Positions 3,472 through 17,371 of a stretch of DNA of 50,753 nt are shown one piece after another (position 1 is the first letter of the stretch; each line of letters starts with the position of its first letter). This stretch comes from Opitutales bacterium. Lineage in GTDB: Bacteria; Verrucomicrobiota; Verrucomicrobiia; Opitutales; Seribacteraceae. The translations under genes and the position numbers were made by a program. A model generated the notes under the pieces. The model saw nothing but the letters and a program-made list of their open reading frames with translations, was not told where the DNA came from and did no database searches. The stretch spans positions 1 through 50,753 of the forward strand of contig JAQXCL010000011.1 of assembly GCA_029251885.1 (NCBI GenBank), read 5' to 3'.

Positions 3472-4275
3472 ATGTCTCCTGACAAACCTAATCAACTAGC
3501 TCAGACTGAAGAGTTCTTAATTGTTCGTTTGATACCTAACATATTTACCACTGTAGGAATGTGTATTGGTCTTACAGGTATAAGGTTTGCACTAGAGTCG
3601 GAGTGGAAGTCTGCTGTAGTCTGTGTTTTGCTTGCTGCTTTTTTTGACCTTGTGGATGGGTTAAGTGCGAGAATGCTTAAGGCAACCTCTAAAATTGGAG
3701 CTGAATTAGATAGTTTATCTGATGCGGTAAGCTTTGGAGTTACTCCTACCGTTATTCTATACCTTTGGATTGTTTCAATAACTAAAAGTGAAAGCAGTTA
3801 TTTACTAGGATGGTATTGGGTACCATTCATTTTTTATTCATCTTGCTGCGTGCTCAGGCTTGCTCGATTTAATGTTACTAGTCGATCTCCATCTGACTCG
3901 GATGGAAAGCCAAACAATTACTTTACAGGAGTTCCATCACCCGCTGGTGCGATTATTCTGTTAAGCCCAATTATTTTCGAGGTAAATATGCAAAGGTTTG
4001 GAATTTCGGGAATCGAATTATTTCGTCCTGGAGCGATATGCTTATGGGTTATGTTAGTCAGTGCCCTTATGGTTTCTCGTATTCCAACCATTTCTCTTAA
4101 AAGTATAAAATATAAAATATCGTACGGAAAAGTAATTTTTGTTTTTGTGGGGGTAATTTTGACTGCTGCCGTTGTGGTTCGAGAACAGTGGCTATCTTTG
4201 GCATTTGCCATTCTATTTTATCTGGTTTCTATCCCTTCCTTTGCTATTTATCTTAAAAGTAAAAAGAAAACATAA
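3472..4275 (+). CDS. pssA: CDP-diacylglycerol-serine O-phosphatidyltransferase (phosphatidylserine synthase)
   Basis: This 267-residue integral membrane protein has about eight hydrophobic segments. The CDP-alcohol phosphotransferase signature D-G-x2-A-R-x8-G-x3-D-x3-D is complete (DGLSAR at about residues 64-69, last Asp near 83). The PNIFTTVGM start and the ARFNVTSRSP segment after the third helix match PssA of the type II bacterial family. It condenses CDP-diacylglycerol with L-serine, the first step to phosphatidylethanolamine. It is convergent with the TPR operon, with only four bases between stops. No phosphatidylserine decarboxylase gene lies adjacent. Confidence 0.88.
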   Translation: MSPDKPNQLAQTEEFLIVRLIPNIFTTVGMCIGLTGIRFALESEWKSAVVCVLLAAFFDLVDGLSARMLKATSKIGAELDSLSDAVSFGVTPTVILYLWIVSITKSESSYLLGWYWVPFIFYSSCCVLRLARFNVTSRSPSDSDGKPNNYFTGVPSPAGAIILLSPIIFEVNMQRFGISGIELFRPGAICLWVMLVSALMVSRIPTISLKSIKYKISYGKVIFVFVGVILTAAVVVREQWLSLAFAILFYLVSIPSFAIYLKSKKKT

Positions 4276-4279
4276 TTCA

Positions 4280-4951
4280 TTAAACGATTGCTTCAAACTG
4301 CTTAAAAATATGATTAGATCTATCCTTTAGGGGTGGGGGCAGGTCAAAACCGTTAGTTGATTCTATTCTTTCTTTAAAAGTTTTAAATAACCCTATGTGA
4401 GCTTTATTATATTTTATCGATTCAAAGTAGTCGCAATAGCTACCAATTAAAGTTTTGTAAATATTGTGATTAGATTGATTAAGGGAGTGAGCAATTTCCA
4501 AGACATTGATTCTTTTAATCCGTTCAGCAGGATCGGTAAGTAAATTAGACATTTCCCAATAAATCTCAAAGGATTCAGTTCCATATCTAATAATTCTTTC
4601 GAGGAAATGAAGGGCAGAGAATTTATCTCCTTTTGCTTCCTTAATACGAAAAGCAGTCTCTAAAAATCCTTTATTTCTGGGTGACTTAGATAATGCGTTT
4701 CCATTGGCATCTTCTGCATTGCTAAAATCTTTTTCAATCAAGTAAGCCTTTGCTAATAGGTTAAAGAGATTTTCTGAAAGCCCATAATTTTTATGAAAAT
4801 CGTTGAGGAAATGAATGGCTTTCAAACTATCCCTTTTTTGGATAAGTGTATCAGCAAATAAATATGCTGATTGCGGGCTAGCAGGATCAAGTTGGAGAGC
4901 CTTCTCCAAGTGTTTCATCGGATCAAGATCAACCTTGATGCAGCTTTTCAT
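4280..4951 (-). CDS. TPR-repeat protein, last gene of the cyclase operon
   Basis: A 223-residue all-helical protein. Its first 40 residues are a clear tetratricopeptide unit (KALQLDPASPQSAYLFADTL), followed by weaker TPR-like helices and a C-terminal segment without recognisable repeat. There is no signal peptide. Its ATG overlaps the stop of the upstream TPR gene by four bases (ATGA), so translation is probably coupled. It may once have been one protein with its upstream neighbour, since that protein ends just after a TPR unit and this one begins with another. A scaffold or adaptor role is an inference from fold only. Confidence 0.8.
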   Translation of the reverse strand: MKSCIKVDLDPMKHLEKALQLDPASPQSAYLFADTLIQKRDSLKAIHFLNDFHKNYGLSENLFNLLAKAYLIEKDFSNAEDANGNALSKSPRNKGFLETAFRIKEAKGDKFSALHFLERIIRYGTESFEIYWEMSNLLTDPAERIKRINVLEIAHSLNQSNHNIYKTLIGSYCDYFESIKYNKAHIGLFKTFKERIESTNGFDLPPPLKDRSNHIFKQFEAIV

Positions 4952-6501
4952 TTTTTTGCGGTCTTTTTGTTCACTTTAGTCTTTGCTAGAGCACATTGAG
5001 CCGATTGATTCATTAAGAGTACAGCTAATTGATAATGACCATCCGCAAAATTTGGATTGATTGTAATTGCTTTTTGTAGTGCTTCAAACGATTCAACGAA
5101 TTTTTTTTGATGAGCTAGTAAAATGCCTAACTCGTAATACGATTTGAAGTTTTTAGGGTTTATGCGAATCGCATTTTGAAAATGTTTAGCCGCTTCTTCA
5201 GGATTGGGTTGCAAAATTATCGTACCATCCTTTGACATTCGCTCTCCTTTGGCTAGCAATCTACCGAAATAATAATGACACTCATCATATTCATTTTTGA
5301 TTTCCAAAGCCGTCTCGAAATTTCTTTCAGCTAAATCGTACTCTGATGGGCTGGACGATAGCCTAGCTAAATTAAAATAAGCTTCAGCGAAATTTTGTTC
5401 AACATCAGTTGCTTTTTGAAAATGAATCTTGGCTTCGTTTAGATCTCCAGAGTTTTCCGCATGAAAAGCCAATTCATAATAAGCTTCCGCAAAGTCAGGA
5501 TTAATTTCGAGAGCCTTGTAGAAATGTTTTTTAGCAAGGCTTGGATCTTCATCAAGGGTTAAAATCTTAGCAAGGTAGAAGTGGGTATTGGCATTTTGAG
5601 AGTCAGCTTGTATGGATAACTTTAGGTTTTTTTCCGCATCTGCTAGCTTTTCTTGATGGTAGTAAAGTTTTCCTAGGTGAAAAAGTGCTTTGGGGTTGTG
5701 GGGAAAATATTTTATGGACTCATTATAGTGATGAATAGCTTTTTCTAGCTTTTTTTCCCCTTCTAAAATCCTGGCCAATAAATAGTGGGCTTTTGAATAA
5801 TCGGATGTAAGTTCAAGTGCGGTAATGAGGTGTTTTTTGGAAGTTGGTAAACTTTTCTCAGAAAATAATATCCTTGCTGCATTGTAGTGAGCTTTCGAGT
5901 TTTTCGGGTCGAGTTCAATAACCCGATAAAAATGTTTCTTAGCTGTTTTCCAGTCTCTCTTATCTATAGATGAACCATCATTATTTGTAGCTTCTCCACC
6001 CAGCAGGAGTTTTCCAAGGTAGTAATGTGCACACGGATAATCATCTTCAATGTCGATGGCTGTCTCATAGTTTTTACGTGCATCTTCAAAGTCATCAGCG
6101 TTGGTCAATAATTTTGCTTTATTGTAGTAAGCGGGAGCAAAATTTTGATCAATTTCTGCAACTTTATCAAAATTGTTTTTTGCTTCCTCGAAATCCTTAA
6201 CTTCTACCAGCATTAAAGCGTAATTAAAATAGGCTTTAACAAAATTAGGATTGAGTTCCAAAGCGTTTAGAAAATGTTCTCGTGCATCCTCATGCTTACT
6301 TAATCGAGTAAGTTCGATTGCAAGTTCACATTCCGCCTCAGCGTAGGTTGAATTGATTGAAACTGCTTGTTCGAAATATTTTAATGCTAAATCGTATTTT
6401 TGCTCAGATTGATAAAGAACGCCCAGTTTGAAATGAGCATTAGCAAGATTTGGATCAAGTTCGATCGCTCGTTCTAAGAGTTTTTTTGCGTTTTGTTCCA
6501 T
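4948..6501 (-). CDS. Large TPR protein with internal 250-residue duplication
   Basis: This 517-residue protein is made almost entirely of about 14 tetratricopeptide repeats (recurring pattern A-x-x-x-F-x-x-A-I-x-I-x-P-x-F-A-x-A-x-Y-x-L). It has a lysine-rich C-terminal tail. Two TPR units carry the same odd insertion (GGEATNNDGSS at about 168-178 and KGERMSKDGTI at about 418-428). Residues 111-206 align without gaps to residues 361-456, showing a block duplication of exactly 250 residues. No signal peptide or membrane segment is visible, so it should be cytoplasmic. It starts 12 bases after the cyclase stop. TPR arrays bind peptides or proteins; the partners are unknown, but the cyclase and repeat protein of the same operon are obvious candidates. 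Confidence 0.9.
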   Translation of the reverse strand: MEQNAKKLLERAIELDPNLANAHFKLGVLYQSEQKYDLALKYFEQAVSINSTYAEAECELAIELTRLSKHEDAREHFLNALELNPNFVKAYFNYALMLVEVKDFEEAKNNFDKVAEIDQNFAPAYYNKAKLLTNADDFEDARKNYETAIDIEDDYPCAHYYLGKLLLGGEATNNDGSSIDKRDWKTAKKHFYRVIELDPKNSKAHYNAARILFSEKSLPTSKKHLITALELTSDYSKAHYLLARILEGEKKLEKAIHHYNESIKYFPHNPKALFHLGKLYYHQEKLADAEKNLKLSIQADSQNANTHFYLAKILTLDEDPSLAKKHFYKALEINPDFAEAYYELAFHAENSGDLNEAKIHFQKATDVEQNFAEAYFNLARLSSSPSEYDLAERNFETALEIKNEYDECHYYFGRLLAKGERMSKDGTIILQPNPEEAAKHFQNAIRINPKNFKSYYELGILLAHQKKFVESFEALQKAITINPNFADGHYQLAVLLMNQSAQCALAKTKVNKKTAKK

Positions 6502-6513
6502 GGATTGAAGCCC

Positions 6514-8784
6514 TTACTTCGAGGTCATTACCCAAACACCATCCCATTCTTTTTTGGGTGGGTTCTTCTTCATATAGTCACAGCGATCAAGATAAAGTTG
6601 AGCAGCTTTATCTTCGGGGTTAATTTTCTTAACTGAATTGAACAATTTTATGGCTTGGTCCCACTTCCCATCATTCCATGCCCGATACCCATCGTTAAAA
6701 TTACCGAGAGCTTCAATCATATTCGGATAAGAATCATCATCATGAAAATCGAGCACTTCGAAGACTCCGACTGGTTCTGTTTTTCCTTTAACAATAACAT
6801 AGTCAACTTGTCGTGTTCGGTATGTAGCTTTAACCGCTTTGTATGTGAATTCACTTATAAGAATATGAGCGCCGTATTGTTTACAGGCACTCTCGATACG
6901 CGCTGCTAAGTTAACCCCGTCTCCAATGACCGTATAGTCCATTCTTTTGGGCGAACCAATATTTCCAGAGACAATCGAATCAGTATTAACTCCCATACCG
7001 TGATCAATTGGCATTTTACCTTCAGCCGCTCTTTTATCATTAAAAACCTTAAGGTCGGTCATCATACGAATGGCTGCACGAACCGCTCGGTCCGGATCGT
7101 CTTCGTGGGGAATAGGGGTGCCAAAAATACACATCATGGCATCACCGATAAATTTGTCCAACATGCCTCCTTCATCTGTTATGCAATCAACCATTATGGT
7201 AAAGTAATCATTTAAAAGCTTAACAGTGCCTTGGGCTCCAAGTTCTTCAGTGATAGTAGTAAAACTTCGAACATCTGAAAACAATACAGATGCCATGCTT
7301 TGTTTTCCTCCCATAACATCATCGCTCTCACCTGCGTTCATTAATTGGTCAGCTAACTCAGGATCCATGTATCGAGACATGGTAGACTTCATTCTTTTTT
7401 CAGAACTAATATCTTCAATCATGATCATAACACCCATACTTTCATTCTTTTGTCCAATCAGGGGGGTGGTGGAAACATTGACAGAAAGCTTTTCTCCTTG
7501 GATAAGTAGGGTGGCATCCAGAAACTCTTCCTGTTCATCTACTGATTCTAACTTATTGGTTAGCCAAGAGTTTTCGGATCCCAGTAATTCGATTAAGGAT
7601 GTGTTTAGAACATCAGTCAAATTAGAGAGTTTCAGTACTTTCAGTCCTGCCGGATTACAGGTCCTAACCATTTTATTCTCATCTATTGTAATCACTGCAT
7701 CGTGCATGCTTGAGAGAATGCTTTCCGAATAATTTTTCTGATTTTGTACATCATCAAAAAGCTTGGCATTTTCAATGCCCATAGAAATTTGGGAGGTAAA
7801 TGCCGCTAGCCTTTTTTCATCTTCTTGATTAAAAGAGCCTCCGCGTTTGTTAAGGACTTGGCTAACACCAATGGTTTTCCCCTCTTTGTTGAGAACTGGC
7901 ATGCAAAGAATGGATCGTGTGAAAAATCCGGTCTGCTTATCAAAGCTTGGATTGAAACGCAGGTCTGCATAGGCGTGGGGTATATTAACAGGCTTAGCGG
8001 ATGTAAAGACAGTCCCTGCGATCCCTAAATGATTTGGGAACCGTATGATAGACTTTTCGTCCAAGCCTTCTCCGACTTCAGTATATAATTCATTGGTCTT
8101 TTCATCATTGATAAAAAGAGTGGCTCTTTCACAATCCAACATCGTTGAGATTGTGGAAATGATTTTTTGCAAGAGTGGAGTAAGTTCAAGTTCAGATGCG
8201 ACCTGAGAAACTACATCAAGGAATTCTAACTCTTGTTTTCTTGCTGCTTCTACTTGCTCAACGATAATATTTCCTTGGATAGCAATAGCTGCCTGTTCCG
8301 TCATTGCCTCGAGTAGTTCTAAATCATCTTGGGTAAATTCACCGTCAATTTTGTTGAGAATCTGTGAAACCCCAATTTTCTCTCCATTAACGGTTCTTAG
8401 AGGGGCACAAAGAATACTTTTTGTACGAAATCCCGTTCTTACATCTACAGCTTTGTTGAAACGATCGTCTTTATACGCGTCGGGGATGATAGCACCTTCA
8501 TTATGTGAAAAGACCCATCCAGCAACCCCCTTGCTATTCATGATACGAATTTCTCTACGAAAACTTCCTTGGGCAATTCGTGAATATAATTCTCCGGTCG
8601 AGGAATCGTTCAAAAAGATAGTTCCTCTTTCGGCACCGATGGTTGAGGTAGTTATCTTAACCAAGGTTTCAAGAGCTTCGTCTAAGCTTTTAGATTTTGC
8701 TAAGTCTGTGGTAACTTGAAGTAGCATGTCGGAGAACCTTGCTGTTCTCTTCTTAGGTTCGGGGGAATTGGTTTTAGTTGGCAT
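6514..8784 (-). CDS. GAF-GAF-PAS class III adenylyl cyclase (CyaB1-like)
   Basis: 756 residues, no membrane segment. Domains in order: GAF-1 (about 25-175), GAF-2 (about 190-345), PAS (about 350-465), class III cyclase domain (about 495-680), and a short TPR-like tail (690-740). Both metal aspartates (D504 in FSD, D548 in GD) are present. So are the adenine-selecting Lys544 and Asp616 and the transition-state pair N625/R629, so the enzyme should be active and make cAMP. GAF-2 has the full NKFDE signature (N312-K313, F318, D322-E323) of cyclic-nucleotide-binding GAF domains; GAF-1 has an incomplete one. The layout is that of Anabaena CyaB1, whose GAF tandem senses cAMP. The start overlaps the stop of the repeat-protein gene by 11 bases. 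Confidence 0.93.
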   Translation of the reverse strand: MPTKTNSPEPKKRTARFSDMLLQVTTDLAKSKSLDEALETLVKITTSTIGAERGTIFLNDSSTGELYSRIAQGSFRREIRIMNSKGVAGWVFSHNEGAIIPDAYKDDRFNKAVDVRTGFRTKSILCAPLRTVNGEKIGVSQILNKIDGEFTQDDLELLEAMTEQAAIAIQGNIIVEQVEAARKQELEFLDVVSQVASELELTPLLQKIISTISTMLDCERATLFINDEKTNELYTEVGEGLDEKSIIRFPNHLGIAGTVFTSAKPVNIPHAYADLRFNPSFDKQTGFFTRSILCMPVLNKEGKTIGVSQVLNKRGGSFNQEDEKRLAAFTSQISMGIENAKLFDDVQNQKNYSESILSSMHDAVITIDENKMVRTCNPAGLKVLKLSNLTDVLNTSLIELLGSENSWLTNKLESVDEQEEFLDATLLIQGEKLSVNVSTTPLIGQKNESMGVMIMIEDISSEKRMKSTMSRYMDPELADQLMNAGESDDVMGGKQSMASVLFSDVRSFTTITEELGAQGTVKLLNDYFTIMVDCITDEGGMLDKFIGDAMMCIFGTPIPHEDDPDRAVRAAIRMMTDLKVFNDKRAAEGKMPIDHGMGVNTDSIVSGNIGSPKRMDYTVIGDGVNLAARIESACKQYGAHILISEFTYKAVKATYRTRQVDYVIVKGKTEPVGVFEVLDFHDDDSYPNMIEALGNFNDGYRAWNDGKWDQAIKLFNSVKKINPEDKAAQLYLDRCDYMKKNPPKKEWDGVWVMTSK

Positions 8785-11152
8785 GGTCGTGATCTAGTTT
8801 CGAGCGTAACTCGATTATTGTTTCATGGAGTTCCTTGAATTCCATATCTTTTTTTTGGGTAGCCTTTTGTAAATTTTTATCATGTGAGACTTGTTTTCGG
8901 TCAATCTCATCTCGAAGAGATCTTATCATATTTCTATAATGATTAATTTCATTAAGGTTGGAAGAAGCAACTTTTTGAACATCATCGATAGCTTTATTGT
9001 TCAATCGTTCAGTCTCTGCCCGAAGTGTACCAATCGTCTCTTTTAGTTGAGACAATACTTGCTCTTGGAGCTTGTTTTTTTCTTGTTTTGCATGCTGCGT
9101 TTGAGCGTTCGCAATGTCTAGCTTTTCCCTAATTTTTGATAACGAATGTTTCAAGGTTTCATTTTCTCTCACTAAAGTGGTGGTAGCGTTTTGGGCTTTG
9201 TCTTCGAGGTCTGATTGTTGCAGGTCAATTTGTGTCCTCAATTCGAGGATAGTTTTCTTAAGTCCATTTAACAAATTTTCCTGAGCTGAATTTTTACTTT
9301 GAAGTTCGGATTGGTGAGCTTCTTTTAAGTTTTCGATTTTTGATCTCGTCAACAAGGCACCTTCTTTGAGTTGATTATTTTCTTGGGTCAAAAAGCTAAT
9401 TTCTGTTTGAACCTTTTCTTCGTTCTCCGACCTAATTCCGTCGATCTGAATTCTAAGCTGTGATGCTATTTCCCTTAGATTACAAATTTCAGACTCTTTC
9501 TGGGACTCGATTGATTGTATTTTGTTTTCACAAATATTTTTTTCACGCTCAATCTGATCTCGCGTTTTTGACAAACTTTTTTGTAATTGTTCAATTTGTA
9601 AATTAGAAGATCCGATTGCTTTTTGAACCTTTTCTTGTTCACGAATTTTTACTTCTTCAATTTGATCACGCAATTCGGAGACTAAAATTTTAAAGGAACT
9701 AATTTCCTGAGTTGAAGCAGCAGAAGCTCTTTGAACTTCTGCATCTAACTGCATTCTTTCTCTATCGAGAGTATTTCGAACAAGTAATAAAGATTTTCGA
9801 AGCTGTTCGATTTCGAGATTCTTTATTCTTTTGGTATCTTGAACTAATTCATCTCTCTGTGCATGGGCAGATTCGATTTCATCTCTTAATGTTTGGATTG
9901 TACCTTGTAGGGAAATCTTTTCCGCATTTGATTTTTGATTCGACTGCTGAAGGGATACGGCGTGTCGATTTTCAATTCTCTCTAAATTTAATCTAAGGTT
10001 GGATAGTGATTCCTTGAGTTGTTTAATTTCTGCAATTTGAGAACTTAATGCTTTTTGGACACCTTCTTCTTTTTGAGCTTCGCTTTGTTCCAATTCAATC
10101 CGTAACGAAGATATTGTTTTCTTAAGTGATATATTTTCTTTTTGCTGCGAGGATTCTGCCTTTTGAATTTTTCCCTCAAGTTCGAATTTTTTCTTTTCAA
10201 TGCTTTCTCGAGTTTGCAGAAGGGTTTCTCTTAATTGGCGAATTTCATCGATATGCAGTCTTTTTTCCTGTTGGACAGCCTCCTGTATGCGGTTATCAAA
10301 ATTTTCAATTTCTTCCCTTAACAGGGTAATCGTCTCCTTGAGCGATTTTTTTTCATTATCGTTAGATTGAATGTTTTTTTGGATTTTTTCTTGGTGTCTA
10401 GCTCCTGCCATATCCAATGCGTTTCGACTTTTTTGCAATGAATCCTGCAGCAATGTTTTCTCTTGGCTGATTTGAGCAATGGCAGCTTGAATTTCGTCTT
10501 CCTTTGAGCGTTTAACTTCTTCCAAGGAAGCCCTTAGGGTTTCGATTATTTCTCTTAAAGTTTTTGTTTCTAGGCCTTGTGATGAAACCAATTTTCCAAT
10601 TTCATTTTCCTTACGGATTTGGGTGTGCCCGATTTTGTGCCTCAGGGTTTCTGCAAGTTTTCTTAATTCTTGAATTTCCGAATTCTTTTCCTGTGAAACT
10701 GAGTGTTTTATCTTGGATTGTTCTATATCCTTGGCTTCTAATTCTCCACGAAGCCTTGAAACAAGATCGTGTAACTCGTTAATTTCTTTATTATTTAAAG
10801 ATTGAGTCTGTTCGGTTGCTTGTTGAGTTAGCAAACTTGACTCTTCAAGTTGATTTCTTAGTTGGCTAACTAAAGAAGAGAAGCTTTTTCGCTCAACTTC
10901 AAAAGTACTTTTCAATCGTTGGTTATTTTCTTCGTGTTTGAGTGAAAGCTTTTCATAGTCTTCCCTCATACCAGCCACTAGTTTTTGGAAGTTAGATTCT
11001 TTTACAGCGTGTCCTTCCTCGATTGCGTGCAACTCAGAGTCATGCAAATCCATGTTTCTCTCAAGCTGATCGCGAAGAGAAGATATGGTTTGTTTCAAGA
11101 AGGTTAATTCGCGTTCAAGCGAATTCGTCTCGGAAGGGGTTAAGAGAGACAT
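8774..11152 (-). CDS. Coiled-coil protein built from 36-residue repeats (21.5 copies)
   Basis: 792 residues, highly charged, no signal peptide, no membrane segment. After an 18-residue head (ending LERELTF) the whole protein is a series of 36-residue units with no insertion or deletion: 21 full units plus an 18-residue half unit. The pattern at unit start is L-K-x-T-I-x-x-L-R-x-x-I/L-E/D. Position 9 is arginine in all 22 copies, position 8 is usually Leu, position 12 Leu or Ile, and position 13 mostly Glu or Asp. From unit 8 many units alternate between endings like EI-x-Q and E-x-IS, suggesting a 72-residue super-repeat. I do not recognise the family. It is the first gene of the unit with the adenylyl cyclase and two TPR proteins, whose starts overlap or abut, so a scaffold or sensor for that system is likely. 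Confidence 0.88.
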   Translation of the reverse strand: MSLLTPSETNSLERELTFLKQTISSLRDQLERNMDLHDSELHAIEEGHAVKESNFQKLVAGMREDYEKLSLKHEENNQRLKSTFEVERKSFSSLVSQLRNQLEESSLLTQQATEQTQSLNNKEINELHDLVSRLRGELEAKDIEQSKIKHSVSQEKNSEIQELRKLAETLRHKIGHTQIRKENEIGKLVSSQGLETKTLREIIETLRASLEEVKRSKEDEIQAAIAQISQEKTLLQDSLQKSRNALDMAGARHQEKIQKNIQSNDNEKKSLKETITLLREEIENFDNRIQEAVQQEKRLHIDEIRQLRETLLQTRESIEKKKFELEGKIQKAESSQQKENISLKKTISSLRIELEQSEAQKEEGVQKALSSQIAEIKQLKESLSNLRLNLERIENRHAVSLQQSNQKSNAEKISLQGTIQTLRDEIESAHAQRDELVQDTKRIKNLEIEQLRKSLLLVRNTLDRERMQLDAEVQRASAASTQEISSFKILVSELRDQIEEVKIREQEKVQKAIGSSNLQIEQLQKSLSKTRDQIEREKNICENKIQSIESQKESEICNLREIASQLRIQIDGIRSENEEKVQTEISFLTQENNQLKEGALLTRSKIENLKEAHQSELQSKNSAQENLLNGLKKTILELRTQIDLQQSDLEDKAQNATTTLVRENETLKHSLSKIREKLDIANAQTQHAKQEKNKLQEQVLSQLKETIGTLRAETERLNNKAIDDVQKVASSNLNEINHYRNMIRSLRDEIDRKQVSHDKNLQKATQKKDMEFKELHETIIELRSKLDHDHAN

Positions 11153-11251
11153 GTTCTATTTAATTGTCAAAAAAATCATTGGGTGTAAATAAGAACCTTG
11201 CCGTAATTTCCTTTATTGCCTAATGGAATACGATTGTTGCAAAGGAATCAT

Positions 11252-12469
11252 ATGCTCCCCAACATTATTGTAATATCGCTTTTGGTTTTTCTTTTGAACT
11301 CTTGTTCGGATCGACCCCCAAATATATTGCCCACATCGACTGAAACTACAGACGGCGATTTGGATTTTGCCTCTTTGATTGCCAAACAAACTGGCGGGGC
11401 ACAAGACTTGGCTTCTTTTTTGAATAGCGGTAATGAAGTTTCTACAATCAATGTCATTGATGGAGCAGACGAAGAAAAAATATCCGAAAAACCAATAATT
11501 CAGTCAAATTTACTACCATTACCCCTTGAAAGCAAAGTGGTTGCGCCCTCTAAAATGCTTGATTCTTACGAGCAACATGCAATGCCTAAATCCCCAACAT
11601 TGTTAGACGATGATTTTCAGATAAGTTTGCAAGATTTGCGTTCGTTGAATGCCCGGAAAGACCAGACAATTGCATCGTTAACACGATTAAACGAGGAACT
11701 CCTTTTAGAACTCCAGAGGTCAAGGACTTTAACTTCAGTTCCTTCAGTCCGTAAGCCTGAAAATGCAATTACAGGTTCGAGTACAAGTCACTTATACAAA
11801 CTGCAAAACGAGATATCCAACCTTAAGAGCAATCTGATGGACAAATCAAGAGAACTTGACGGACTTAGATTGCGTAATGATCAATTTGTGAATGGCATTG
11901 ATTCACTGCAACCGAGGGTTTTGCCTGTTCCTGTAAACGCAGGTCCCCGATCCTTTAAAGAAGAGAAGAACCCCCCAAAAGCGGATTTTCGCACTTCATC
12001 CAATTTAGATGCTTTGCAAAATAGTGGTACATGTACTCTAGAATTTGATGCTGTGGTTACTCTTTTAAACGGTAAAAACAAAGAAGTTTTTTACACAGAA
12101 TTCTTTTTGGTATCAAATAATTTGAGCGAACTTCTATTGAAGAAAGGATTTTTTCTCAAAGATTACCCACAAGTTAGTTCGTTCGAAGAGCTTTGGGCGA
12201 AAGCTAGAAAATCTCCCTTTTCTTATCCCGGGGTTTACAAAAGAATCCGTAACATTCTTTTGGAGCAAGTGGAACAAGGAAAAGGGCACAGGATACGAAC
12301 AGACATTGATGGTTTTGCCGAATTCAAAAACTTAGTACCTGCATCTTATTACTTGTTAGGAACTGCACCGGTTGGAAAAATTGGTGCGGTTTGGAATAAT
12401 CCAATCCGTTTAAAATCAGGTTCCAACAGAACCTCACTTTCCCTGGCGAATGCAAATTGGCGTGATTAG
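11252..12469 (+). CDS. Coiled-coil lipoprotein with C-terminal beta domain
   Basis: 405 residues. The N-terminus MLPNIIVISLLVFLLNSC is a lipoprotein signal peptide with the lipid-bearing Cys at 18. The ATG at 11252 is preferred to an upstream TTG at 11216 because it begins the signal peptide and has AAAGGA a few bases before it. After a low-complexity linker come two coiled-coil stretches (about 125-160 and 185-220). A conserved-looking C-terminal domain contains GTCTLEFDAVVTLLNGKNKE and a later TDIDGFAEFKNL...YYLLGTAPVG, which resembles a carboxypeptidase-regulatory-like beta fold. It diverges from the 36-residue-repeat gene (99 bp between starts) and could share its regulation. Function unknown. 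Confidence 0.8.
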   Translation: MLPNIIVISLLVFLLNSCSDRPPNILPTSTETTDGDLDFASLIAKQTGGAQDLASFLNSGNEVSTINVIDGADEEKISEKPIIQSNLLPLPLESKVVAPSKMLDSYEQHAMPKSPTLLDDDFQISLQDLRSLNARKDQTIASLTRLNEELLLELQRSRTLTSVPSVRKPENAITGSSTSHLYKLQNEISNLKSNLMDKSRELDGLRLRNDQFVNGIDSLQPRVLPVPVNAGPRSFKEEKNPPKADFRTSSNLDALQNSGTCTLEFDAVVTLLNGKNKEVFYTEFFLVSNNLSELLLKKGFFLKDYPQVSSFEELWAKARKSPFSYPGVYKRIRNILLEQVEQGKGHRIRTDIDGFAEFKNLVPASYYLLGTAPVGKIGAVWNNPIRLKSGSNRTSLSLANANWRD

Positions 12470-12532: not shown

Positions 12533-14695
12533 ATGAGTACAGAACAATCCTCCGATAGCAATAAACTACAACTTAGCTTGCAGCAAAAACTTGGCATTAT
12601 TTTATCATTTTCAAAAGATAAAATAGTCGAGCAGATTCAGTGCGTTTGGTTTATTATACTTTATTTAATTGTTTTTCAGGTTCTTGTTTTGGGTTTGCCT
12701 ATCGTCTATTCTCTTATGATTGCTGCGGGAATTATGATTGTTATCGTAGGGCTTGCTTTTTTTATGGAAGGTCTACGACTCGGTCTGATGCCACTTGGTG
12801 AATCTTTGGGTTCTACATTACCAAGAAAGAAAATCCTTGGTATTCCTTGTCTTCCAACAAGTCTTGCCTTTGGATTTGTGTTGGGAGCATTTGCTACATT
12901 CGCGGAACCGGCTATTGGGGTTTTGAGAGCTGCCGGTGCTGGCGTAGATCCCACAGCTGCACCTCTGTTGTGGACCATATTAAATACTGGAGCAGGGCTA
13001 CTCGTAAACTGTGTCGGTGTTGGTGTCGGCATAGCTGTACTCCTCGGTGTTCTCCGCTTTTACAAAGGCTGGTCTCTTAAACCATTTATTTATGTCGGTG
13101 TTGTGACTCTTTCTTGCATAACATTATATATGCAGTTTTCCGATGACAGGCTTAAGCATGTGCTAGGCTTGGCCTGGGACTGTGGTGCTGTAACTACGGG
13201 TCCAGTCACTGTGCCCCTCGTACTAGCACTAGGTATTGGAGTTTGTAGAATCGTATCGACAGGTGGTTCAAGTAATACGGGTTTTGGTGTAGTTACCTTG
13301 GCATCACTTTTTCCAATTCTTGCTGTAATGTGCTACGCTCTCTTTTTGTTCAACACTGATAATTACTATTTTGCCTCTGAATCAACTGCTAGTTGGCATA
13401 AGAACGCTGGTAAGTATGGAACAAACTATCCATCAGATTTGCAAAAATTTGGGGATATAAAAGCCAAGGCCAGATTAGATTCTGCTTCTGGTGTTGGTGA
13501 AACAGAGCTTTCCTGGTCATTGTCTGTGGAAGAGAGGAGAATGGTTGAAAATTATCTCAATCAAAATCACGCCCTTCCTGAAGGTTATGCACTACGAACT
13601 AAAGTTGCCGAAGGGTCAATCGTGCCAGCAGCATTACCAGGTGGAGTCCGAGAAAATGTTCAGGTTCGTGGTGCCAAGACCTATGTTGTTAGGGAGGGAT
13701 ATAAAGCTCCGGATGCTCTTTGGAACCCAGACGCAGATGTTGCTACCGCGTTTACTAACAAATTCGATTTTTTCCCGAATACCTTTAAACCACTGGAAAG
13801 TGATAAGAATAACAATGGGAAAGTTGATCCGGGTGAAGATTTTTATAGCCTAGAATCTGACGGCTCAATTAATTACTCCAAAAAGGACGGTCTGCTTACC
13901 GGTCCTGATCAAGATCGTGGAGCTTTGGAAGGTGCCATATGGGCAATTGTGCCATTATGTTCTATTCTTTTATTCGTTTTGATTGTTGGTCTCAGGCAAA
14001 AACCCAAGCACATGGACGAACTTGTAATTGGTATTGCTTGTGCCGTTATTGGAATGTGTCTTTTCAACTTGGGGATTGCACTTGGATTAACCCCACTTGG
14101 CGAACAGCTTGGTGGAAATGTGGTGTCTAGTTTTGCATCCATTCAACCCTGGCAATCAGAGGGATTTATCGATCCTATTTTTCAGTCTTCTACGGTAGGT
14201 AAATGCTTAGCGATTTTATTTGGGTTTATTTTAGGGTACGGAGCAACCTTAGCTGAACCTGCGTTGAATGCCTTAGGATCTACAGTTGAGAAAATTACAG
14301 TTGGTGCCTTTAAGAAAAATTTACTCATGCAAGCTGTTGCTACTGGAGTAGCTTTGGGAATTGCCACAGGTGTAGCTAAAATTGCATTCAATTTAGAACT
14401 TTGGTATCTTCTGATACCCCCTTACACCTTGCTTTTAATTCTCACTTTTATTTCGAGTGAAGATTTTGTTAATTTCGGATGGGATAGTGCAGGTGTAACA
14501 ACCGGTCCAATAACAGTTCCATTAGTGTTAGCTATGGGACTTGGTATTGGTGCAAAGACTGGAGCAATTGATGGCTTTGGTGTTCTGTCACTTGCATCGG
14601 TTGGCCCAATTATTACGGTGCTTACTGTTGGTCTGTTGGTTCGAAAAAAACCTAAAGAAAATCCATCTTCAGAACAATTAGCGGAGGCTGCATAA
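12533..14695 (+). CDS. DUF1538 duplicated membrane protein with soluble insert and EF-hand loop
   Basis: 720 residues. Two homologous membrane halves (about 30-270 and 465-705) each carry the DUF1538 motifs: A-x-F-A-E-P-A / A-T-L-A-E-P-A near 122 and 571, and W-D-x-x-x-V-T-T-G-P-x-T-V-P-L-V-L-A near 215 and 650. Such an inverted or tandem duplication is typical of transporters, but the substrate of DUF1538 proteins is unknown to me. Between the halves lies a soluble domain (about 275-465). It contains a canonical EF-hand calcium loop, D424-K-N-N-N-G-K-V-D-P-G-E435 (D, N, N, G, V, D, E at positions 1, 3, 5, 6, 8, 9, 12). The stop overlaps the start of the PII-like gene by one base, so the two proteins probably work together. 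Confidence 0.88.
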   Translation: MSTEQSSDSNKLQLSLQQKLGIILSFSKDKIVEQIQCVWFIILYLIVFQVLVLGLPIVYSLMIAAGIMIVIVGLAFFMEGLRLGLMPLGESLGSTLPRKKILGIPCLPTSLAFGFVLGAFATFAEPAIGVLRAAGAGVDPTAAPLLWTILNTGAGLLVNCVGVGVGIAVLLGVLRFYKGWSLKPFIYVGVVTLSCITLYMQFSDDRLKHVLGLAWDCGAVTTGPVTVPLVLALGIGVCRIVSTGGSSNTGFGVVTLASLFPILAVMCYALFLFNTDNYYFASESTASWHKNAGKYGTNYPSDLQKFGDIKAKARLDSASGVGETELSWSLSVEERRMVENYLNQNHALPEGYALRTKVAEGSIVPAALPGGVRENVQVRGAKTYVVREGYKAPDALWNPDADVATAFTNKFDFFPNTFKPLESDKNNNGKVDPGEDFYSLESDGSINYSKKDGLLTGPDQDRGALEGAIWAIVPLCSILLFVLIVGLRQKPKHMDELVIGIACAVIGMCLFNLGIALGLTPLGEQLGGNVVSSFASIQPWQSEGFIDPIFQSSTVGKCLAILFGFILGYGATLAEPALNALGSTVEKITVGAFKKNLLMQAVATGVALGIATGVAKIAFNLELWYLLIPPYTLLLILTFISSEDFVNFGWDSAGVTTGPITVPLVLAMGLGIGAKTGAIDGFGVLSLASVGPIITVLTVGLLVRKKPKENPSSEQLAEAA

Positions 14696-15810
14696 TGAAT
14701 AATTTAGAAGTTAAAAACGATATTTCCTTGGTAAATTTAATTTTACCAAAAGATTCATTAGATAAAGTTTCTAAGGAACTGCAAAAAGCTGGTGCCAAGG
14801 GTATTTTTCAAGTTTCTGCTCGTGGTTCTATTTTGAATGAAGGAGGTTTTCTAGCTAAGATGTTTCCACCTCCTGCACCTGAACAGTGCCTAGTTCAAGT
14901 TTTGGTACCTGCAAGTCAAAATCAAAGAATTTCAAACATTGCTATAGAAGCTGGTAGGTTAGATCGTGTTGGTTCAGGAGCTATTTTTAGTATTCCTTGT
15001 AGTGAAGCTCAACATTCTTCAAGTTTTCCACTTACGGAAGGAGAAGGGGAAGGAGAAGGGGATAATTCTACTGAGATTACTATGGAAGCGATTTGTTGTA
15101 TCTGTGAGAAGGGAGTTGCTGAAGACATAGCACAAGCTGCCCTAGTTGCAGGAGCACCGGGTCCTACTGTAACCTTTGGCGAGGGAGGTGGAATCCGAGA
15201 CAAGATACCGGTACTTCGTATGACCAAGGGACCAGAAAAAGAATTTGTTTGGTGTGTGGTTGATCGTTCAGAGTCGAGCGATGTATTTACAAGTATGGCA
15301 AGAGCAGGAAGAATTACTGAACCCGGTCGTGGCTTCATGTATTCAATTCCTGTCAGCAACGGACTCATAAATGTCAGCAGTACGGTTGCTAGCTCATCGC
15401 ATGGAGCTAGTATGGAACAAATCATCTCAGCATTGGATGAAGTCAAAGGCGGAAAAGACTGGAGAAGTAGTGTAGAGACCAAATCTACTTCGCTAAGCAC
15501 CTCGTTTCTAAAAGACCTTGTTGGATTGTATTGTGTTGTTCCTCGTGATCATTATTCAGATGTTTATGATGCGATTCTCGATGCTGGTGCACCTGGTGTT
15601 AGTACTAATTTTGGAGTTATGGCAGATCAGGCGAGTTCCGGGGAAGATACGCGTAATGAAGAGTGGGCAATTGTATATACTTCACTCGCTCCTACATCTG
15701 TCAAAAATGTAATGGAAAAAGTTTCTACGAAAATCGATGCTCTAGGAATAAATCGTGTTGCTTTTTACACTTTACCAATCCCTAAAGCCCTTACTTATTT
15801 AGGTGGTTAA
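14695..15810 (+). CDS. Multi-domain PII-like protein paired with DUF1538
   Basis: 371 residues, soluble. It looks like three consecutive PII-like (ferredoxin-like fold) domains at about 8-102, 128-226 and 274-371. Each has a strand-helix start such as VNLILPKDSLDKVSKELQKA or LVGLYCVVPRDHYSDVYDAI, then an A-G-A-x-G segment. Domain 2 carries TFGEGGGIRDKI in the place of a T-loop-like insert. PII proteins sense nucleotides and 2-oxoglutarate and bind membrane transporters, so gating of the DUF1538 protein is the obvious guess. Start: ATG overlapping the upstream stop (TAATG), with GGAGG ahead. Between domains 1 and 2 is an EGEGEGEG linker coded by a perfect 12-base tandem duplication. Residues of a canonical PII uridylylation loop are not recognised. 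Confidence 0.8.
   Translation: MNNLEVKNDISLVNLILPKDSLDKVSKELQKAGAKGIFQVSARGSILNEGGFLAKMFPPPAPEQCLVQVLVPASQNQRISNIAIEAGRLDRVGSGAIFSIPCSEAQHSSSFPLTEGEGEGEGDNSTEITMEAICCICEKGVAEDIAQAALVAGAPGPTVTFGEGGGIRDKIPVLRMTKGPEKEFVWCVVDRSESSDVFTSMARAGRITEPGRGFMYSIPVSNGLINVSSTVASSSHGASMEQIISALDEVKGGKDWRSSVETKSTSLSTSFLKDLVGLYCVVPRDHYSDVYDAILDAGAPGVSTNFGVMADQASSGEDTRNEEWAIVYTSLAPTSVKNVMEKVSTKIDALGINRVAFYTLPIPKALTYLGG
15037..15060 (+). repeat. Perfect 12-base tandem duplication coding an (EG)4 linker
   Basis: The 12-mer GAAGGAGAAGGG occurs twice in a row, in frame, and codes for the Glu-Gly linker between PII-like domains 1 and 2. Copy-number change would alter linker length by four residues without a frameshift. 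Confidence 0.9.
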
Positions 15811-15873: not shown

Positions 15874-15897
15874 TGTAGCTTATCTAATTTAGCTACA
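15874..15897. terminator. Inverted repeat between convergent genes, possible terminator
   Basis: TGTAGCT and AGCTACA form a perfect 7-bp stem with a 10-base loop, lying between the PII-like gene (+) and prmA (-) and including the prmA stop. No long T-run follows on either strand, so it is at best a weak terminator. Confidence 0.35.
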
Positions 15898-16770
15898 GTC
15901 AGATTTTGTAATCCGGACCGATGCCCAATCACCCATCAGTTTCAAGTTAATTTGGATGTTGCTGTCCGGGTTTAAGTTTTTAAAGCAATCACATACATGA
16001 TCTACCTCCTTAGCTAAAATTCCTGAAAGGATAATAACAGAGTTCGGTTTGCTTAAACCGAGGATTTTTTCTGCGTTACTTATTAAGATATCTGCCTGGA
16101 TATTAGCTGCCACATAATCGAATTTCCCCGATGAGGGATTCATTTTGTTTAAATCAATGACCTGAAACTGAACATCGTTTGGTAAATTATTCACACAAGC
16201 ATTCTCAGAGGAAATCCGAACAGCATCTTCATCATTGTCGAATCCTAGGGCACTAGAAAAACCGAGTAATGATGCTGCAATAGTTAAAATTCCGGAACCA
16301 CACCCCAAATCAACAAATGAATCTCCACAGATTTTAGAATTTGTATCATCAACCATGAATTCAATGCACATACGTGTAGATTCATGATTTCCTGTACCAA
16401 ACGCCATACCTGGATCTAAAAATAGTGCGTGATTGTTTGCGGGGATTTCGTAATCATCTTTGAGCCATAAAGGTACAAGGTGAAAGCCGTTATAACTCCA
16501 TGCTTTAAAGTGCTTTTTGTAAGAATTTTTCCAATCAGTATCTTGGAGGTTTTCCTTAGAGAAATCAAATTCGAGAATATCTTTCAACTCATCTTTAAGT
16601 TGAAAGGTTTTGTTATGCATCTCGCTTTGAGTAGCGAAGTATCCAGTCAAAACTATACCACCGGTTAGTTTATCAATTTCTACAATCCAAGGCGAAGGAG
16701 CATGTTCAAATAGGTATCCATCGATGTAATCAAGGGAACTTTCAGGGATTGAACTTGTGAGTTTAATCAC
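15889..16770 (-). CDS. prmA: Ribosomal protein L11 methyltransferase
   Basis: About 293 residues, the usual PrmA length. The N-terminal substrate-binding region is followed by LFLDPGMAFGTGNHESTRMC, the PrmA-specific segment, then the SAM-binding motif I (VDLGCGSGILTIAA) and GFDNDEDAV with the acidic ribose-binding residue. The VAANIQADILI segment corresponds to the catalytic N-P-P-like motif region of this family. It trimethylates ribosomal protein L11. The start is uncertain: a GTG at 16770 gives a normal N-terminus (MIKLTSS) and overlaps purN by 8 bases, while a TTG at 16800 would add ten residues. It is the last gene of the grpE-dnaJ-rfaE2-purN-prmA run. Confidence 0.9.
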   Translation of the reverse strand: MIKLTSSIPESSLDYIDGYLFEHAPSPWIVEIDKLTGGIVLTGYFATQSEMHNKTFQLKDELKDILEFDFSKENLQDTDWKNSYKKHFKAWSYNGFHLVPLWLKDDYEIPANNHALFLDPGMAFGTGNHESTRMCIEFMVDDTNSKICGDSFVDLGCGSGILTIAASLLGFSSALGFDNDEDAVRISSENACVNNLPNDVQFQVIDLNKMNPSSGKFDYVAANIQADILISNAEKILGLSKPNSVIILSGILAKEVDHVCDCFKNLNPDSNIQINLKLMGDWASVRITKSDCS

Positions 16771-17371
16771 GGGGCTTAGCGGTTGAATCAGTATGAGCAA
16801 TATCAGCGACTACACTGGGTAATAACATATGTTCAGCAGCATGAACTTTTGCTGTAGTTGATTCGATAGTATCTGAGGACATAATTCGTACGGGAGCCTG
16901 TGCGATGATGGGTCCTCCATCTAATTCAGATGAGACCCAATGAACAGTACATCCAGTAATTTTTACACCTGCATCCCACGCTTGCTGAATTGCATTTAGA
17001 CCACGAAAGCAAGGCAGTAGGCTAGGGTGCAGGTTGATAATTCTCGAATCAAATGAATCGATAAATCTTTGGCTGATAATTTTCATGAAGCCAGCCAGAA
17101 CAATTAAGTCGGGATGTTTCGATTTAATTGCTGATATCCAATGGTCTTCTTCTATAATAAATTGGGAAGATTCATGCTCCTGAATGGGGGGATATTTACC
17201 AAGATAAGATGAGTAAATGCCGGCTTTTTCTGCACATTTCAATATTCCACTATTTTGTCTGTCTGAGTATACGGCAACTATTTCAGTTGGTCCGAGTAAT
17301 CCGGAAGAAAAAGCGTCAAGAAGTGCTTGGCAATTTGTTCCTTTTCCTGAACCTAATATTATGGTTTTCAC
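16763..17371 (-). CDS. purN: Phosphoribosylglycinamide formyltransferase
   Basis: 202 residues, standard PurN length, GTG start. The phosphate-binding start ILGSGKGTNCQALL and the formyl-transfer residues N113 and H115 in IINLHPSLLP and D151 in SSELDGGPIIAQ are all present. It transfers formyl from 10-formyl-THF to GAR, the third step of purine synthesis. It lies 14 bases after rfaE2 and overlaps prmA. No other purine gene is in the window. Confidence 0.93.
   Translation of the reverse strand: MKTIILGSGKGTNCQALLDAFSSGLLGPTEIVAVYSDRQNSGILKCAEKAGIYSSYLGKYPPIQEHESSQFIIEEDHWISAIKSKHPDLIVLAGFMKIISQRFIDSFDSRIINLHPSLLPCFRGLNAIQQAWDAGVKITGCTVHWVSSELDGGPIIAQAPVRIMSSDTIESTTAKVHAAEHMLLPSVVADIAHTDSTAKPRD

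Follow-up and report, generated by a model that had tools for sequence, protein, structure and literature searches.

The window analysed here is the whole 50,753-nucleotide stretch of contig JAQXCL010000011.1, from a 2.18-Mb genome; the named MAGs closest to it belong to Opitutales (Verrucomicrobiota). Its reverse strand holds an operon that runs from a repeat-rod gene with an ATG start codon, which we call R36, through an adenylate cyclase gene to two genes for TPR or TPR-like proteins (Table 1). Only in the home family and the neighbouring family f18 does the third gene come after the cyclase, and the TPR-like product of the probable last gene evolves fast and is barely recognisable in other genera. 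Genes for a Wzc-like polysaccharide tyrosine autokinase (522-2861, +) and a PssA-like CDP-alcohol phosphatidyltransferase (3472-4275, +) flank the operon end. Beside R36, positions 11216-12469 (+) encode a divergent lipoprotein-like protein with a coiled-coil stretch of its own that always adjoins R36 in the home family. Further on, one open reading frame (12533-15810, +) joins both halves of a UmpA/UmpB-type (DUF1538) cation antiporter. The next gene overlaps it by 1 bp and encodes a protein of 371 aa that begins with a P-II-like domain; nearly all family members have this antiporter/P-II-like block beside the rod operon.

Table 1. Features of the R36-cyclase operon in the window
Feature	Position	Strand	Remarks
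R36 repeat-rod gene	8774..11152	-	792 aa, 22 nodes, 36-residue spacing
R36 18-residue head (second half of a unit)	11099..11152	-	Layout and orthologs
R36 21 full 36-residue units	8831..11098	-	Register 7+7+11+11
R36 C-terminal 18-residue half unit (LHETIIELRSKLDHDHAN)	8777..8830	-	
Overlap of R36 stop and cyclase start	8774..8784	-	11 bp
Partner adenylate cyclase	6514..8784	-	GAF-GAF-PAS-class III, TPR-like tail, 756 aa
Cyclase GAF-A domain	8278..8685	-	Pfam, residues 34-169
Cyclase GAF-B domain	7735..8184	-	NKFDE-type motif; approximate borders
Cyclase PAS domain	7408..7725	-	Pfam, residues 354-459
Cyclase class III catalytic domain	6772..7296	-	Pfam and residue alignment
TPR protein	4948..6501	-	Third operon gene
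Second TPR-like protein	4280..4951	-	Probable operon end

The first-pass annotation had described R36 as an exact 36-residue repeat with an invariant arginine, and direct layout of the protein bears this out: its residues resolve without any insertion or deletion into 18 + 21 × 36 + 18. Position 9 of the unit is Arg in 22 of 22 copies, and position 13, said to be almost always acidic, is Glu or Asp in 20 of the 21 full units and Gly once. The claim that positions 1, 8 and 12 are hydrophobic stands for position 1 (Leu, Phe or Tyr) and, save one Tyr and one Thr, for position 12 (Ile or Leu), but holds less well for position 8, which is mostly Leu and takes Thr, Ser, Met, Val or Ile in one third of the units. 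Two further positions that had gone unmentioned, Gln24 and Glu33, are near-invariant (17 of 21 each). Overall, the protein is of low complexity, rich in Glu, Lys, Gln and Leu and almost free of Gly and Pro. Its head forms an N-terminal cap with a terminal Phe followed by LKQTI that is kept across orthologs, the C-terminal half unit is the most conserved of all units, and in most relatives the protein ends approximately 5-15 residues past the last Arg.

The units have just 8-9 of 36 residues in common, which points to an ancient, diverged repeat and not to recent DNA duplication. Self-identity rose from approximately 0.1 at other lags to 0.22 at lag 36 and to 0.26 at lag 72, and the 72-residue super-repeat proposed earlier is therefore real. 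Units at even separations are more alike than those at odd separations (9.4 versus 8.0 of 36 residues), an effect that is stronger in relatives (22.3 versus 16.5 in L111).

To follow the repeat through evolution, we compared R36 across related genomes. In the first search, all seven genomes of the same genus and 16 of 17 others from the family had the gene, the exception (G016) being a 69% complete assembly. Thirteen orthologs with 22 units aligned gap-free across 788 residues at identities down to 30%, and pairwise comparison of 16 R36 proteins with a mean identity of 0.42 revealed no internal indels, the 7 gap events of the first indel control being N-terminal upstream extensions that lie outside the repeat. 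By comparison, gap events per 100 residues numbered 2.24 for the gene at 11216-12469, which has an equal mean identity, and 0.87 for the gene at 15889-16800. Conservation across units was highest for Arg9 (1.00), followed by Gln24 (0.92), position 1 (0.89) and Glu33 (0.86), and the ends of the protein were better conserved than its middle. Among the same genomes, the mean identity of the slowly evolving cyclase was 0.88, whereas R36 diverges fast (0.42) except in its register and a few positions.

Unit number differs between R36 proteins. Members of the home family have 16, 18, 20, 22 or 24 nodes, and the cyclase tree requires at least seven changes of node number within this family and f18. 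All node numbers in this group are even, with a chance of approximately 0.008 were parity free, which, together with the greater likeness of even-separated units, indicates that the 72-residue module pair is the evolutionary unit there. Outside the group, node numbers are unrestricted and range from 3 to 12. Across all R36 proteins, the unit number varies from 3 to 24 (about two in a fusion described below) and the spacing is constant.

Relatives were found with two profiles, one built from the home-family orthologs and one from short forms. The ortholog profile recovered the 36-residue Arg rule in other Opitutales families, with 24, 9 and 4 nodes, and in named records from Desulfobacteraceae (8 nodes), Riflebacteria (5), Burkholderiaceae (4) and Legionella (3). 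The short-form profile then matched genomes of Verrucomicrobiota (6 of 388), Pseudomonadota (26 of 398), Riflebacteria (7 of 40) and Desulfobacterota (7 of 247). Among the Desulfobacterota matches, L187 proved to be a false positive, an OmpA-type coiled-coil lipoprotein with neither the Arg rule nor a cyclase. In total, 84 non-redundant R36-type proteins contain approximately 1016 in-phase nodes with one clear substitution of Arg9 within a block, Asn at residue 207 of L030; the other non-Arg calls are one X from unread sequence and a Gln in the first unit of L158. The Arg9/36-residue rule is beyond chance, and the profile searches found the register and Arg9 kept in orthologs and Arg9 also in distant relatives.

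Among all cyclic arrangements of 3/4 spacings, the best hydrophobic core was 34-1-5-8-12-15-19-23-26-30, which corresponds to two heptads followed by two hendecads (7+7+11+11). The same core came out best in the home family and, independently, in other lineages. We used this register scan as evidence, since the Fourier peak at 3.6 obtained from a tiled unit is partly forced by the 36-residue tiling. The protein is thus no plain heptad coil, as the first-pass annotation had noted from 36 not being a multiple of 7. The heptad a positions hold Ile, Val or Leu and the d positions Leu, as is typical of parallel dimers. The hendecad core positions favour Ala, which is expected for dimeric hendecads (PMC9858780), and R36 is probably a parallel dimer. 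With ten turns per unit, the periodicity is 36/10 = 3.60, just below the 3.63 of a straight helix (PMC4786415). This agrees with the nearly straight rod proposed earlier but goes against its alternative, a right-handed coil, as the expected twist is very slight and left-handed. At a rise of 1.485 Å, we calculated a twist of approximately -30 degrees per unit, a left-handed pitch of approximately 12 units or 64 nm, and lengths of about 5.3 nm for a 36-residue module and about 118 nm for the 22 nodes.

Single-chain AlphaFold models are consistent with this shape. A 184-residue form from Riflebacteria was predicted as one uninterrupted helix (pLDDT 93), and the window protein, at modest confidence, as helices 6-184 and 195-791 (pLDDT 71, pTM 0.19). 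As modelled, R36 would have the long helix and 3/4-spaced hydrophobic core of an alpha-helical coiled coil in general. The register places Glu33 and Lys/Arg2 so that they pair in the g-e' manner, whereas Arg9, at an e position, lies opposite Thr or Ser and could pair with Glu13 of its own helix. Arg9, Glu13 and Gln24 thus appear to be conserved beyond the needs of coil packing, which suggests a putative binding site repeated once per unit.

The first-pass annotation overlooked that R36 has a genetic partner, and in other phyla the pair includes rods as short as 3 units. Wherever a locus offers sufficient sequence, the gene directly downstream on the same strand is a homolog of the window cyclase, overlapping R36 or lying within about 150 bp of it; the loci lacking an adjoining cyclase are at contig ends (L035, L125 and L128) or are the false positive L187. 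Most family members share the 11-bp overlap, as does a second family of Opitutales (L112 and L113), and the pair occurs in at least four phyla: Verrucomicrobiota, Pseudomonadota, Desulfobacterota and Riflebacteria. We also searched in reverse, starting from the cyclase. Among 273 Opitutales genomes, the cyclase was found in 38 and R36 in all 38 of these; two further genomes with R36 (G003 and G083) have it at contig ends. Among 299 Pseudomonadota genomes, 24 had a close cyclase, counting one split over two contigs (G843), and R36 was found in 24 of 24. Cyclase scores fall from about 890 to 355 bits, and the genomes at 355 bits (G621 and G664) have no R36 match. Taken together, 62 of 62 genomes that encode a close cyclase also encode R36, and we regard this reciprocal co-occurrence as our strongest result. 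In one case (L173, G641:C36:80311-82932), about two 36-residue units are fused through a long, Pro-rich linker to the N-terminus of a GAF-GAF-PAS cyclase, a third unit being degenerate with His in place of Arg. R36 is thus consistently paired with a single subfamily of GAF-GAF-PAS class III adenylate cyclases. The patchy distribution outside the home family suggests that the pair has spread by horizontal transfer.

The partner has the Pfam domain order of a tandem-GAF class III cyclase (GAF-GAF-PAS-Guanylate_cyc). In 15 of 15 diverse aligned cyclases, the two metal Asp, the Lys/Thr substrate pair and the Asn/Arg transition-state pair are kept, with roles assigned as is usual for the class, and the Lys/Thr pair marks class IIIb. 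With its catalytic residues intact, the partner should be an active adenylate-type enzyme. Similar domain architectures are found in Anabaena CyaB1 and CyaB2, which have the GAF-GAF-(PAS)-class III catalytic order and NKFDE in GAF-B; the R36-linked subfamily differs from them in always having a rod gene and in ending in a TPR-like tail. To our knowledge, no dedicated repeat-rod partner gene has been reported for CyaB1 or CyaB2. The NKFDE motif, a mark of cNMP-binding GAF domains (PMC4411481), is complete in GAF-B of 14 of the 15 proteins and partial in GAF-A. The best matches of solved structure include the tandem GAFs of PDE5 and PDE2 and the Anabaena CyaB2 GAFs (1ykd) and, for the catalytic domain, 3r5g (CyaB) and 2w01. 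The partner is the only PF00211 protein in the window's genome, which also encodes three proteins with cNMP-binding domains, possible candidates for cAMP receptors.

Searches of R36 against Pfam, NCBIfam and PDB sequences gave nothing above generic coiled-coil scores. The first-pass annotation had named two results that would speak against its reading, a match to a known heptad coiled-coil family and a loss of Arg9 in orthologs, and neither was observed. Its statement that no named family fits also agrees with our results, as Pfam and NCBIfam hold no family covering the protein. Searches of the open-access literature turned up neither the repeat nor the gene pair. Coiled-coil rods and tandem-GAF cyclases are familiar separately; we know of no earlier example of their obligate union or of the strict 36-residue rule.

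Several known groups were compared and rejected. An ordinary heptad coiled coil would have an uninterrupted 7-residue hydrophobic repeat, which is absent from R36. SMC proteins matched at 19 bits against a cut-off of 567 bits, and the 22 repeat units leave no space for ATPase heads. FilP, Scy and DivIVA are likewise long bacterial rods that mix heptads and hendecads, with Ala in dimeric hendecad cores (PMC9858780), but they have an N-terminal DivIVA-type domain and roles in polar growth and division, whereas R36 has a strict 36-residue (7+7+11+11) unit and a cyclase partner. The window protein had no Pfam match and thus no such N-terminal domain, and one relative matched DivIVA across generic coil at 20.7 bits, under the 28-bit cut-off. 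The S-helix, which spans about 40 residues, forms a parallel coiled coil and serves cyclases and kinases (PMC1592074), lies inside multidomain receptors and has an ERT signature in its central heptad, whereas R36 is multi-unit, is encoded by a separate gene save in the one fusion and shows no ERT in its unit position tables. Finally, TPR, PPR and HEAT repeats resemble R36 in unit length (34-36 residues), but they are helix-turn-helix units; R36 is predicted to be a single uninterrupted helix, with continuous helix in both models, and had no tetratricopeptide, PPR or HEAT match.

We consider it reasonably probable that R36 is a cytoplasmic, straight coiled-coil rod that acts as a scaffold and tethers, arrays or clusters its dedicated cyclase. 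The obligate pairing, the fusion and the repeated exposed site fit such a positioning or clustering role. The rod would be nearly straight and built of 36-residue modules in which the pattern of two heptads and two hendecads would repeat on one face every ten helical turns, and Arg9, Glu13, Gln24 and Glu33 would be displayed at the same place in every module. Regular surface sites, specialised ends, or both could hold cyclase dimers and/or further rods, and cAMP would be made by the positioned or clustered enzyme. The number of units may set the span or valency of the scaffold, from 3 nodes in the shortest form to 22 (approximately 118 nm) here. However, since it ranges from 3 to 24 at cyclase identities of approximately 55-60%, no single length or valency is required. 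We infer the direct contact between R36 and the cyclase, the scaffolding or clustering, the dimer state and the role of unit number, and the linkage could also be compatible with R36 acting in the same pathway without touching the cyclase. A stricter version, which we hold to be rather doubtful, is that each module docks one cyclase dimer, making R36 a counting ruler with face-aligned dimers 5.3 nm apart, or 10.7 nm per 72-residue pair. The better-conserved ends would be needless for such simple one-site-per-module docking and may reflect end-specific tethering or head-to-tail joining.

The no-indel rule, the even-unit steps of the home family and the specialised ends would also suit staggered self-assembly. 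R36 could then be an intermediate-filament-like cytoskeletal element whose 36/72 period serves lateral stagger, as in paramyosin or lamin, with the cyclase only a passenger on the completed filament or at one of its ends. Filament-assembling bacterial coiled-coil rods are known, FilP being one that self-assembles in this way (PMC6599971). However, forms with 3-5 nodes, which are short for proteins that build filaments, still follow the rule and adjoin the cyclase, and filament proteins are not usually tied to one enzyme gene in every genome; we therefore regard this explanation as unlikely. That R36 instead regulates the cyclase in trans, binding its N-terminus or GAF/PAS dimer as a helical input and switching its activity like a detached signalling helix or transmitter coil, seems to us quite improbable. 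While helices often relay signals to class III cyclases (PMC1592074), the genes overlap and are obligately paired, and the fusion places the repeat at the cyclase N-terminus, the variable unit number and the flexible, Pro-rich linker of the fusion argue against a rigid signal relay through the rod. Moreover, the N-terminus is the least conserved part of the cyclase (0.43), and the ERT signature of signalling helices is absent. The weak coiled-coil matches to SMC and other families and the low-complexity composition would be expected of a generic long coiled coil with an accidental or merely inherited cyclase neighbourhood, but this is barely credible given the 62 of 62 reciprocal co-occurrence over distant, patchy lineages and the fusion, and the true generic coil L187 has neither the Arg rule nor a cyclase.

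R36 is an unnamed repeat protein tied to a defined enzyme activity by strong comparative evidence, and the pair points to an undescribed cAMP-signalling scaffold. It makes testable the question of whether bacteria have dedicated scaffolds for soluble second-messenger cyclases, comparable to eukaryotic anchoring proteins. The counting ruler, if true, would amount to a modular cAMP antenna in bacteria that grows or shrinks in evolution through the gain or loss of module pairs. In the 36-residue rule, nature also supplies a design, tested by evolution, for coiled-coil rulers that are nearly straight and can be adjusted in length. The R36 profile and the neighbour rule make members easier to find and annotate. 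A ten-unit member (L161) illustrates the risk of mis-annotation: over 36-residue stretches of its locus (L161:1384-2487), it matches PF22150 (type IV pilin Tt1218) above the cut-off. The score is summed over the repeats and the match is absent from the five other proteins tested; we take it as spurious, a short helix profile probably having fitted the repeat by chance.
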